Positions 21,500 through 24,822 of a stretch of 32,466 nucleotides of DNA are shown in pieces; the first letter of the stretch is position 1, and the number at the start of each line of letters is the position of its first letter. This stretch comes from Acidimicrobiaceae bacterium. Its GTDB lineage: Bacteria; Actinomycetota; Acidimicrobiia; Acidimicrobiales; RAAP-2. Position numbers and translations under genes: made by a program. The notes below the pieces were generated by a model, which saw nothing but the letters and a program-made list of their open reading frames with translations, was not told the origin of the DNA and searched no databases. Location of the stretch: the NCBI GenBank assembly GCA_003133325.1, contig PKXA01000090.1, positions 7,717 through 40,182 of the forward strand. Direction: 5' to 3'.

Positions 21500-21573
21500 G
21501 AACCCGGAGGTCCGGTGCAGCGGGCATGTCACCGGTGAACCCGGAGGTCCGGTACAGCGGGCATGTCGCCGGT
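21500..21573. repeat. 37-bp tandem repeat upstream of the SCP2 gene
   Basis: Two adjacent 37-bp units, 21500-21536 and 21537-21573, begin GAACCCGGAGGTCCGG and end in CCGGT, with two mismatches. The second unit ends exactly where the SCP2 -10 box begins, so it could duplicate an operator. Confidence 0.9.
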
Positions 21574-21587: not shown

Positions 21588-21974
21588 GTGAGCACCTGGC
21601 TGACTGACGAGTGGTTCGAAGAGACCCGGGCGCTGGCGGCCAACCAACCCGAGCGCCCCGGCCTGTCGGCCCGCATGCAGTTCATTGTCACCGGTGGAGC
21701 CGACGGTGAGGTGCGTTACTACTGGGTACTCGAGGACGGGCTCCTGTCCCAGAGTGGGGCCGGCGATGTCGACGACGCTGACGTCACCCTGACGACAGCA
21801 CGGTCGGACGCCATGGCCATGGCCAAGGGCGACCTAGATCCCAACGTCGCCTTCATGCAGGGTCGGATGAAGGTCACCGGTGCGATGGGCATCATGATGC
21901 GGCTGCTTCCGGCCACCAATACCCCCGAGTATCAGGAGCTACGCCGCCGGATCGCCGACATCACCGAGTTCTGA
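21588..21974 (+). CDS. SCP2 sterol-carrier-domain protein
   Basis: A 128-residue stand-alone SCP2-like protein, which would bind a lipid in a hydrophobic tunnel. Segments are SARMQFIVTGGADGEVRYYW, DADVTLTTARSDAMAMAKGD and LDPNVAFMQGRMKVTGAMGI, the last being the usual SCP2 pocket region. The C-terminus is MMRLLPATNTPEYQELRRRI followed by ADITEF. It may feed the sterol-type P450s upstream, an inference. Its last 87 bp and 40 bp of flank are duplicated at 24009-24135. Confidence 0.85.
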   Translation: MSTWLTDEWFEETRALAANQPERPGLSARMQFIVTGGADGEVRYYWVLEDGLLSQSGAGDVDDADVTLTTARSDAMAMAKGDLDPNVAFMQGRMKVTGAMGIMMRLLPATNTPEYQELRRRIADITEF

Positions 21975-22014
21975 GCTCTCCCATCGTTCCCGAGTCGGCT
22001 CCGCCGGGGAATGG
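21888..22014. repeat. direct repeat, copy A (end of SCP2 gene)
   Basis: 127 bp covering the last 29 codons of the SCP2 gene and 40 bp beyond. About 8 mismatches separate it from copy B at 24009-24135, in the same orientation. The two copies bracket a segment of about 2 kb. Confidence 0.9.
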
Positions 22015-22627
22015 TCCCTCGCTTCCTCGTTGACCACGTCGGGGGCCGGGAACCTGCTGCCCGGTGTGCACCGCGTCGATTGTCGCAAACCCCAGGCCCG
22101 GACACCGCTGCTGGGTTCGCCACCCGTCCGACATGGCCTCGAGGATCGGCGCCTCGTCGTGCCCGCCACATCGGACCTGTCGACGGCACTCATTTGAGCC
22201 CCCCCATCAGGTCCGAGTGCCTCATCGGGCCCCCTTCCGTGGTCGCAACCGAGGTGTGACTCGTTGTGGACTTTCCCACGATCACCTCGGAGCGAAGTGG
22301 GACTGCGATCACCATGACGGCTTTCCGTGGTGGTACCGGCTCTGGGGAATTCGCTCCGACCGGAAGTGATCCGAACCGCTCGACGCGTTCCCGTAGAAGT
22401 GGATGCTGTCGACGATTGGCCAGGTGCAACTGGCGAAGGTATCGGTGGGCCACCGATCCGGAAAACACCGGTGAAGATTGGTGTACCGACGGTAGATCTG
22501 GCGCGGGACCGCAAGATTACGGCTGAGTGGCCGTTCTTCTACACAAGATCAGAGTTCTTGTTCACCAAGTAATCGGCGATGCCAGCCTGCGTGGCACGTT
22601 GACGGTGGACAGAGGAGAAGGGGGAAC
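22015..22627. other. 613-bp stretch without a confident gene
   Basis: Six-frame reading shows only low-complexity Arg/Ser/Pro frames plus one plus-strand frame, 22327-22572, ending WPFFYTRSEFLFTK, that reads more naturally in its last 50 residues. That could be a gene remnant. A small hairpin (TGCCA-GCCTGCG-TGGCA) sits about 50 bp before the NlpC/P60 start. I looked for the c-di-AMP (ydaO) riboswitch pattern often found before such hydrolase genes and did not see it. Confidence 0.4.
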
Positions 22628-23773
22628 ATGACTTCCGATTGCCGACCGGACTTGCCGATGGTTCGAAGGGGGCCCGCCGGAAACCGGGGGATGTGGTGGC
22701 GCTGCTTCACCGTTGGAGGAGTGGCCATCGCTACGTTCTCGGTCGCCGCCGCGGGCGCATCAACTCCCGCTCCTCACACACTTGGGTTGCACCACCGTGC
22801 AGCCACAAAGACCTACGTGGCGACTGCATGGCCCGGGTTGATATCGCAGAACGCGCCAGCGTCACCAGCTGCGTCACCAGCTGCGTCACCAGCTGCGTTA
22901 TCGACGCCGGCACCTCCAGCGGTGGTGCCGCCAGACCCTTGCGCCGTCACGTCCCGCAATGCGGGGGCTACCCTGACCGCCGCCACCACGTCGGAAGCTG
23001 ATGCCAGTCACGGCACGACGGCGACCCTGACGGCCCTGTCGGTTGGGCCCACCGTCAACTCGACGCTGGGATCCATTGTTCCGTCGCAATCCGGCCAAGC
23101 AACCACCGGAGGTGGTGGCTCCGGATCGACGCTGCCTACTGGCGGGGGATTGCCCACGAGCGGTCTGCCCACTACCACCACCACTACCACTACCACTCCA
23201 AAGTCCTCCCCCAAACCTTCGGGCAGCTCCACGACCGTCCCGAGCAGCGCCTCACCGGCTCCGACGGCCTCCGCCTCTCAGAGCACCCCGTCGACCACGC
23301 TCCCGAAGTCGCCAGTTCTGTCCGGCGGGGGAACGTCCACGGGTATTGGCTGCGACCTCACAGGAAGTGCGACCGTCGGCGAGCTGGCAGCGGGTGAGAC
23401 GCCGACGGAAGTTGCGGCGGTGACCGATGCGCTGGGTCTGCTCGGCATTCAGTATCTATGGGGCGGTGAATCTACTCACAGCGGGTTCGACTGCTCGGGG
23501 CTCGCGCAGTACATCTACCGAGAAGTGGGGATATCTCTTCCACGGGTGGCCCAGCAGCAGTTCGACGCTGGTCCGGGCGTACCGCCCGGAACACTGGCAG
23601 AGCCTGGCGACCTGGTGTTCTTCGGATCATCGACCAAGGGCGTGGAGCATGTGGGGATGTACTTGGGGAGCGGTTTGATGATTGATGCTCCGCATACCGG
23701 CGCCGTCGTGCGCTTTGATCGAGTGCAGGGCTTTGGTCCGATTGTGGGAGTGACTGCGCCGGGCCAGCGATAG
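22628..23773 (+). CDS. secreted NlpC/P60 cell-wall hydrolase
   Basis: A 381-residue exported protein with a strong ribosome binding site (GAGGAGAAGGGGG). A basic N-terminus and a hydrophobic stretch (FTVGGVAIATFSVAAAGAS, about 27-45) form the signal peptide. Residues about 70-255 are a low-complexity Ser/Thr/Pro/Ala linker, with three SPAA repeats, nine Thr in a row and Gly-rich pieces, suited to spanning the wall. The C-terminal domain (from about 262) has TDALGLLGIQYLWGG, FDCSGLAQYIYREVGISLPR with catalytic Cys289, PGDLVFFGSS and KGVEHVGMYLG with His341; a third polar residue lies in DAPH (353-356). It probably cleaves stem-peptide bonds of peptidoglycan. The gene lies in a 2-kb segment between direct repeats. 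Confidence 0.9.
   Translation: MTSDCRPDLPMVRRGPAGNRGMWWRCFTVGGVAIATFSVAAAGASTPAPHTLGLHHRAATKTYVATAWPGLISQNAPASPAASPAASPAALSTPAPPAVVPPDPCAVTSRNAGATLTAATTSEADASHGTTATLTALSVGPTVNSTLGSIVPSQSGQATTGGGGSGSTLPTGGGLPTSGLPTTTTTTTTTPKSSPKPSGSSTTVPSSASPAPTASASQSTPSTTLPKSPVLSGGGTSTGIGCDLTGSATVGELAAGETPTEVAAVTDALGLLGIQYLWGGESTHSGFDCSGLAQYIYREVGISLPRVAQQQFDAGPGVPPGTLAEPGDLVFFGSSTKGVEHVGMYLGSGLMIDAPHTGAVVRFDRVQGFGPIVGVTAPGQR
22859..22894. repeat. 12-bp repeat coding the SPAA linker
   Basis: Three copies of GCGTCACCAGCT (22859, 22871, 22883) inside the NlpC/P60 linker, each adding one Ser-Pro-Ala-Ala tetrapeptide in frame. A run of ACC/ACT threonine codons follows near 23169-23202. Confidence 0.9.
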
Positions 23774-24008
23774 GGATGCGGCGCCCGACGGGAGTGGGGG
23801 GCAAGTTCAAGCGGCGCCCGATCGTCAGCGAACTGGAACGGGATGCAGCATGGAATGACGATTGGCGTGATCAGGTCAGTGCGTTCGCGCATTGAATCGG
23901 CGGGTCGTGACTGCGGACGGTCGCTCCAAGTGCGGCGGCTGTGGCGGTCGCACCTCGGTGATGGCATGCCGGATGTTCGCCTCGCACAAGGATTGCATCT
24001 CGGCGACC
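23774..24008. other. gap between NlpC/P60 gene and repeat copy B
   Basis: No gene is recognised. An ORF at 23892-24095 joins a Cys-rich stretch (KCGGCGGRTSVMAC) to the copied SCP2 tail in frame. It is most easily explained by the duplication rather than as a functional fusion. The 11-mer GCGGCGCCCGA occurs twice about 35 bp apart near 23778-23824. Confidence 0.4.
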
Positions 24009-24135
24009 GGCATCATGATGCGGCTGCTTCCGGCCGCCGATACCCCCGAGTATCAGGAGCTACGCCGCCGGATCGCCGACATCAAGGAGTTCTGAGCTCT
24101 CCCACCGTTCCCGAGTTGGCTCCGCCGAGGAACGG
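24009..24135. repeat. direct repeat, copy B (displaced SCP2 3' end)
   Basis: 127 bp about 94% identical to 21888-22014, same orientation. It contains the SCP2 tail codons, here reading LLPAADTPEYQELRRRIADI and KEF, and the stop. The stop and last ten codons of the convergent minus-strand gene (24082-24822) lie inside this copy. The ancestral order was therefore probably SCP2 directly facing that gene. Confidence 0.9.
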
Positions 24136-24822
24136 AATGTGGATGGAACCCGCGCTCTGGAGCACAATGAGGATGGCCACTGTCAACAGCACGACGATGA
24201 GCAGCACGGTGAGTACCGGCCGGATCTTCACCCAGGTGAGACCGGTGGTTCCGCCGGCTGCACCTCGCCCACCCTCGTCCGGCGGTGGGTGGGCGAACAC
24301 GGTCGTCGTCGACGATGATCCGGCCGGACCCTGGCGGTCGAAGGCAAACGCCGCCACTCTGGGACGTAGCTGGTCGGCATTCCCACCCGGCAACAAAAAA
24401 CGATAGGTGTTGAACATGGTCCGGAGACTGATGAGGGCACCGGCCCCGGTGTGGGGGCGCGATCGGTCGGTGGCATCGGGATCGATGATTTCGTCATCGT
24501 CCCCGACACCTTCACCTGTGCGGTTGAGCTCCGGATCCACCCACCACTCAGGGGTGATGCCCCCGCTCCATGGTTCGATGACGTGAGCGATGAGGGACGA
24601 CCAGGGCAACAGTCGCGACTGCTCTTCGGGACTGTGGATCACCCCGACGCCTTCATCGTCGAAGGTCAGTGTGATTCCATCAACCTGTAGAGGGGCACTG
24701 CCGTCACTACTCAGCAGCACCAGGCCCTCGAGCTGAAACGGTGCAGCAGGGGGCAGCGCGACGAGTACTCCGCCGGAGGTCTCCGGTGGAGTACTGCTCT
24801 TCGACTCGCCCTTTCCGACCAC
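24082..24822 (-). CDS. hypothetical protein with C-terminal TM anchor
   Basis: A 246-residue protein starting at GTG 24822 with GGGGAG as ribosome binding site. Residues about 15-160 are a soluble, beta-rich domain (VLVALPPAAPFQLEGLVLLS, LQVDGITLTFDDEGVGVIHS, LPWSSLIAHVIEPWSGGITP, FNTYRFLLPGG). An acidic stretch (GDDDEIIDPD) interrupts it. One hydrophobic helix (about 202-224) precedes a 20-residue end. The pattern suggests a cytoplasmic PH-like or GRAM-like beta domain tethered to the membrane, but I do not recognise a family. Its C-terminal codons lie within repeat copy B. Confidence 0.6.
   Translation of the reverse strand: MVGKGESKSSTPPETSGGVLVALPPAAPFQLEGLVLLSSDGSAPLQVDGITLTFDDEGVGVIHSPEEQSRLLPWSSLIAHVIEPWSGGITPEWWVDPELNRTGEGVGDDDEIIDPDATDRSRPHTGAGALISLRTMFNTYRFLLPGGNADQLRPRVAAFAFDRQGPAGSSSTTTVFAHPPPDEGGRGAAGGTTGLTWVKIRPVLTVLLIVVLLTVAILIVLQSAGSIHIPFLGGANSGTVGELRTP

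Follow-up and report, generated by a model that had tools for sequence, protein, structure and literature searches.

A 2-kb insertion carrying an NlpC/P60 hydrolase gene, bracketed by a 127-bp duplication of an SCP2 gene end, and its empty site in a related Acidimicrobiales genome

Some integrating elements, such as e14 at icd, target the 3′ end of a protein-coding gene, and such elements leave that 3′ end duplicated at both borders, with one copy at the empty site. The genomic island SGI1 likewise targets a gene 3′ end, that of trmE (PMC8409611). A different arrangement is found at the wzy locus of Salmonella Typhimurium DT8, where 113-bp direct repeats lie around about 2.5 kb of DNA carrying one gene; the report describes identical repeats, a single copy after deletion, and excision with a circle shown experimentally, and it identifies no integrase (PMC12074656). 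Finally, in the MMBIR model, sequence from elsewhere appears at the junction, and the site becomes duplicated when, after a template switch, replication restarts behind the break (PMC2621351). MMBIR is a model for human rearrangements that draws partly on E. coli data (PMC2621351). The locus that we describe shares features with each of these systems; it is a known kind of event, here well documented by relatives.

The locus lies in a window of 32,466 nucleotides (the whole stretch of DNA analyzed) from the genome of an Acidimicrobiaceae bacterium, here called G000, which comprises 4.05 Mb in 133 contigs and is 96.6% complete with 3.1% contamination. The original prediction held that 127 bp spanning the 3′ end of an SCP2 gene recur 2.1 kb away at about 94% identity, and that the bracketed DNA carries an NlpC/P60 hydrolase. 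Both statements were borne out (Table 1). The two 127-nt copies differ at 8 positions (94% identity), their starts are 2,121 bp apart, and a wider unit of 133 nt (21882 to 22014 and 24003 to 24135) is 92% identical. A BLAST search of the 4.05-Mb genome returned no copies beyond these two, the second at E 2e-50. The left copy spans the 3′ end of SCP2, whose orthologues in two related genomes, G001 and G004, are 94 to 96% identical, and the DNA between the copies includes the hydrolase gene. A convergent gene ends within the right copy, as had been claimed, and matched no Pfam or NCBIfam family; by eye it has a hydrophobic segment near the C terminus, and in this group it has stayed next to SCP2. 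The 12-bp sequence GCATCATGATGC, a perfect palindrome, occurs at 21889 to 21900 and 24010 to 24021 and nowhere else in the window; in both repeat copies it sits a single base in from the 5′ border and hence at one breakpoint.

Table 1. Features of the SCP2/NlpC locus (window coordinates)
Feature	Coordinates	Strand	Basis or remark
SCP2 (sterol-carrier-type) gene, intact	21588..21974	+	PF02036, E 2.7e-11
Left copy of the 127-bp repeat	21888..22014	+	Repeat comparison with the single copy of G004
Left-copy remnant of the 14-bp tail-to-tail overlap	21961..21974		Both stop codons remain
Inserted DNA, 1,994 bp	22015..24008		Absent from G004; left part common to G001 up to 22919
Probable relic of a tyrosine-recombinase N terminus, about 30 codons	22075..22155	-	tblastn and family HMM
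Candidate structured leader, a conserved noncoding block upstream of the NlpC gene	22366..22510	+	G000/G001 comparison and folding
NlpC/P60 cell wall hydrolase gene, 381 aa	22628..23773	+	PF00877, E 1.5e-23
Right copy of the 127-bp repeat	24009..24135	+	Contains the 3′ end of the convergent gene
14-bp tail-to-tail overlap of the convergent gene stop and the SCP2-copy stop	24082..24095		Same as at empty sites
Convergent gene, 246 aa, original tail-to-tail partner of SCP2	24082..24822	-	Adjoins SCP2 in 10/10 loci where detected

We searched relatives for a site with a single junction copy, as the original prediction had proposed, and found it in G004 as well as in more distant genomes, so the relatives do not all carry both copies. 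In G004, which belongs to the same genus, the flanks are 95.4% and 94.4% identical to those of G000 and are joined in one repeat copy of 133 bp (L053, 5386 to 5518), where the two flank alignments converge. The bracketed 1,994 bp is a derived insertion. In G001, the left copy, an insert beginning at the same point and its sequence through 22919 are all present, and the first 40 or so insert bases align ungapped with those of G000. The next G001 contig starts at 24212, its contigs ending on either side of the right junction, which was thus observed in one assembly only, that of G000. Each end of the insert was also searched against 397 genomes of the order, and the matches besides self were short: 25 to 79 bp in 19 genomes for the left end and 24 to 43 bp in 5 genomes for the right. 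Twelve of the 19 left-end matches cluster at 22092 to 22190, which we considered as a shared gene relic and rejected when tblastx against nine of these loci gave inconsistent frames.

The ancestral gene order was assessed in 39 SCP2 loci of named genomes. Ten of these, that of G004 included, have a detected convergent gene, which adjoins SCP2 in every case, with no NlpC gene between the two; the idea that SCP2 originally faced this gene was therefore well founded. One further locus, L102 of G001, carries NlpC, and in the remaining 28 the convergent gene was not found at the sensitivity used. Seven of the 10 loci (L101, L103 to L107, and L136, one of them that of G004) have a tail-to-tail overlap of exactly 14 bp between the two genes; the other three have values of +4, −3, and +67. 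The right repeat copy in the window retains this overlap. The anatomy of the locus follows from this overlap: DNA inserted here leaves both genes whole only when the overlapping bases are copied. The insertion broke neither SCP2 nor the convergent gene, and the 127-bp duplication spared both. The locus is a clear natural example of DNA entering the overlap between two genes, both left unbroken thanks to a long target duplication.

The differences between the repeat copies bear on how exact this duplication was. The left copy shows no differences from the single copy of G004 in its SCP2 part (21888 to 21974) and four after the stop codon, while the right copy shows four in the SCP2 part and two after the stop; one post-stop site, counted for both copies, is private to G004, and all of these counts are too small for a statistical test. 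Three of the post-stop changes are private to the left copy of G000, being absent from the right copy and from G004. In G001, the left copy lacks all three of these derived changes, showing the native base at two of the sites and a third base at the other, and the duplication was therefore probably exact at its origin. From this pattern we infer that the copies, once made, drifted mostly where they were unconstrained. A similar pattern of differences would be expected from a Campbell-type crossover located between the repeat's two parts. The age of the insertion can also be gauged, as the copies differ by 6% and the species by 5 to 8% in the flanks.

Whether G004 never had the insert or lost it was addressed with the genes around the site. 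The tree and site counts used 18 genes, up to seven outgroups and three MAGs; a 19th gene, dedA, at the window edge, was dropped beforehand for identities out of line with the others (82 to 93%). Of 169 shared-derived sites, 77 united G000 with G004, 62 united G001 with G004, and 30 united G000 with G001. On the flanking-gene concatenation, the AU test rejected the tree in which G000 and G001 are sisters (p 0.002), gave the best support to G001 with G004 (0.889), and allowed G000 with G004 (0.116). The rejected tree is the only one that needs no loss, and G004 therefore probably lost the insert; recombination between the repeats would have removed the insert and left one clean copy of the repeat. 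The genes conflict in their signals, PIG-L favoring G001 with G004 by nine sites to two and a hydrolase-like gene, hyd, favoring G000 with G004 by 18 to 6. Recombination among species could produce such disagreement between single genes and mimic the signal of loss, and an empty site imported into G004 from another strain is a possible alternative to loss. Deletion between direct repeats 1.5 to 10.5 kb apart has been measured in Deinococcus (PMC4627823), and by analogy an exit through the repeats would need no special enzyme.

The NlpC/P60 domain of the predicted hydrolase scores 83.2 bits against a curated cutoff of 23, and the protein can be aligned with NlpC/P60 peptidases of solved structure, RipA among them. 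In G008, from another genus, a homologue with different neighbors is 75% identical at the DNA level over the domain; relative to it, dN/dS is 0.17 in the domain and 0.47 in the N-terminal part, and the comparison with G001 gave 0.45 over the first 96 N-terminal codons. The gene is thus, as far as its sequence tells, probably functional. Matches at E ≤1e-30 were found in 34 of 172 genomes of the family, most of them 33 to 62% identical. Elsewhere in G000, the insert is represented solely by a 68% identical NlpC paralogue (4 of 99 candidate places scored). No viral contig with the NlpC gene was confirmed; 414 phage records match the protein, all below 60% identity and none covering 80% of the query, and the insert DNA matched no plasmid.

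Upstream of the hydrolase gene, the block at 22366 to 22510 differs between G000 and G001 at 7 of 145 positions (138/145 identical), with no codon periodicity. The segment 22366 to 22540 folds with a z score of −1.98, 5 of 200 shuffles folding equally well, and the same multibranched core is predicted for G000 and G001. In the alignment of these two sequences, no pair is changed on both sides and two are changed on one side. The block is possibly a structured 5′ leader of the hydrolase gene. Rfam gave no match at E ≤1 on 21900 to 24200 and none at the gathering threshold on five sources. A covariance model search for homologues of the leader returned 8 of 396 other genomes of the order at E ≤1, all of which we took as chance; the best (G455, 3.3e-4) falls inside an ORF that by eye reads as a short-chain dehydrogenase, and the others lie at 0.24 to 0.92; L099 and L100 scored 0.34 and 0.47. 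No convincing homologue was found outside G000 and G001. The preceding part of the insert, 22045 to 22334, has no matching stretch in G001.

The original prediction also stated that no integrase is present. No intact gene is: nine reading frames in or overlapping the insert were negative in Pfam. A stretch of about 30 codons near the left border is, however, a probable, not proven, relic of one, as judged by similarity. It lies in a minus-strand frame (22018 to 22200) that reads toward the left border, 60 bp further on, and its best nonself match in 21 genomes was the N terminus of a 371-aa integrase (PF00589) on contig C48 of its own genome (50% over 28 aa; tblastn E 0.0041, a post hoc value, the frame having been chosen by eye before testing). 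The tblastn score was equaled by 1 of 500 shuffles. An HMM of the family, built from 25 members, gave the relic 7.1 bits, a score reached by none of 500 shuffles (478 scored; maximum, 5.7). Pfam gave no match to the relic, NCBIfam gave only an unrelated match at E 0.07, and plasmids gave none; the relic search also matched G007 (E 0.0096), whose listed ORFs by eye seem to be without an integrase. The integrase also gave a second weak match (E 0.010), at the insert's right end, which the family HMM did not pick up and which we discarded. The relic was not detected in the 767 bp of insert that the G001 contig carries; it may be older than the split of G000 and G001 and lost in G001, or younger and confined to G000.

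The family of the C48 integrase occurs in 24 of 397 genomes of the order at E ≤1e-20 and in 401 plasmid records, with no confirmed viral contig, and is so widespread that a relic of it is no rarity. In the 20 kb around the C48 gene there is one direct repeat pair (50 bp, 82%). G000 is a recombinase-rich genome or bin, with 42 PF00589 matches (for example on C63, C27, C105, and C20; L163 to L181) against 3, 6, and 7 in G001, G002, and G003, respectively. Several of the G000 matches lie close together on one contig.

We favor, with moderate confidence, the view that the insert arose by nonhomologous capture with target duplication and was later lost through the repeats. About 2 kb of foreign or ectopic DNA, made up of the NlpC/P60 gene, its upstream region and debris possibly including an integrase gene fragment, would have reached a common ancestor of three or more close Acidimicrobiales species. 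It would have entered at the 14-bp overlap with a 127-bp target duplication, SCP2 being served by the left copy and the convergent gene by the right, and the two copies would then have decayed independently. The least certain step is the entry itself, whose mechanism is unproven, the choice being between nonhomologous break repair or template switching and a recombinase. By template switching, about 2 kb would have been copied elsewhere before return to a point 127 bp behind the break, and this or another form of nonhomologous repair explains an exact duplication of arbitrary length without terminal repeats. Had the break instead been staggered, filled in and joined to a captured fragment by Ku/LigD end joining, we would also expect an exact long target duplication; no Ku gene (PF02735) was found in G000, G001, G002, or G003 (G003 being only 64% complete), whereas the same search was positive for G037 and B. 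subtilis, and we consider this version highly improbable. Transposition by an insertion sequence or DNA transposon finds no support, given a duplication of 127 bp, the absence of terminal inverted repeats joining both insert ends among the 20 inverted pairs listed (arms of at least 12 nt), no Pfam transposase in the frames scanned, and, among the candidate places scored (4 of 99), no other place of the insert in G000 beyond the NlpC paralogue. An assembly chimera might be suspected in a fragmented MAG whose right junction was seen once; it is hardly credible when the left junction is independently present in G001, both flanks are syntenic with G004 and G001, and the copies differ at eight sites.

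A more serious alternative, though one we hold to be somewhat unlikely, is that the insert is the relic of a site-specific integrating element whose attB was the 3′ end of SCP2, whose attL and attR are the repeats, and whose integrase gene has since been deleted but for part of the N terminus near the left border. A degraded element of this kind explains the relic, which lies near the left repeat and reads toward it, as well as the many recombinases of G000, and together these favor a mobile-element origin. The locus is like 3′-end-targeting islands in its duplicated SCP2 end at both borders and its one-copy empty site, and unlike them in lacking an intact integrase, an element-supplied 3′ end and any sign of reuse of the site. 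The suggestion that the repeats are att scars of such an element was not supported as stated: the left copy matches the empty site at every position of its SCP2 part, leaving no element-supplied 3′ end in view. Across the 39 SCP2 loci, none carries its SCP2 gene end twice (three show chance matches of 14 to 15 bp) or has another insertion at the same site; five of them have just 159 to 1,179 nt of downstream DNA, among them the filled G001 locus, which ends ahead of the expected right copy. The left border is common to G001 and so already existed in the common ancestor, yet the relic was not detected there, and at 7 bits the relic itself is a weak match. An element-supplied 3′ end could still be hidden if the crossover separated the SCP2 part of the repeat from the post-stop part. 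It is unlikely that the insert is a currently excisable cassette without an integrase, a 2.1-kb circle that leaves and re-enters by homologous recombination as at wzy. The anatomy is the same, in that the wzy report gives 113-bp repeats, a 2,558-bp deletion and a circle detected by PCR (PMC12074656); the locus has long direct repeats, a single copy at the insert-free site and no intact integrase, and the presence and absence of the insert do not follow the flanking-gene tree. Differences at 8 of 127 repeat sites, unlike the identical wzy repeats, argue against frequent recent exchange, and mismatches lowered deletion between repeats in Deinococcus (PMC4627823). Very unlikely, in our view, is a fuller version in which the 2.1-kb unit is a nonautonomous, still excisable hydrolase cassette with its own structured RNA leader, moved in trans by a host tyrosine recombinase or RecA through long repeats spanning the 14-bp overlap; if it were true, populations would switch the hydrolase on and off without harm to either neighbor.

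Capture followed by loss through the repeats, the account we prefer, would mean that gene gain and loss without an integrase can resemble att scars. Our literature searches, which were not aimed at the locus by name, found no report of this SCP2/NlpC locus, and the closest published anatomy appears to be that of wzy in Salmonella, with 113-bp repeats and a 2.56-kb deletion. Unlike wzy, the repeats here differ by 6% and span an overlap of two genes, and loss is inferred from relatives; the locus combines an empty site, a junction common to a second species and a probable clean loss in a third. A separate, smaller repeat was also seen nearby: two tandem 37-bp units, 95% identical, lie between the PIG-L gene and SCP2 at 21500 to 21573.
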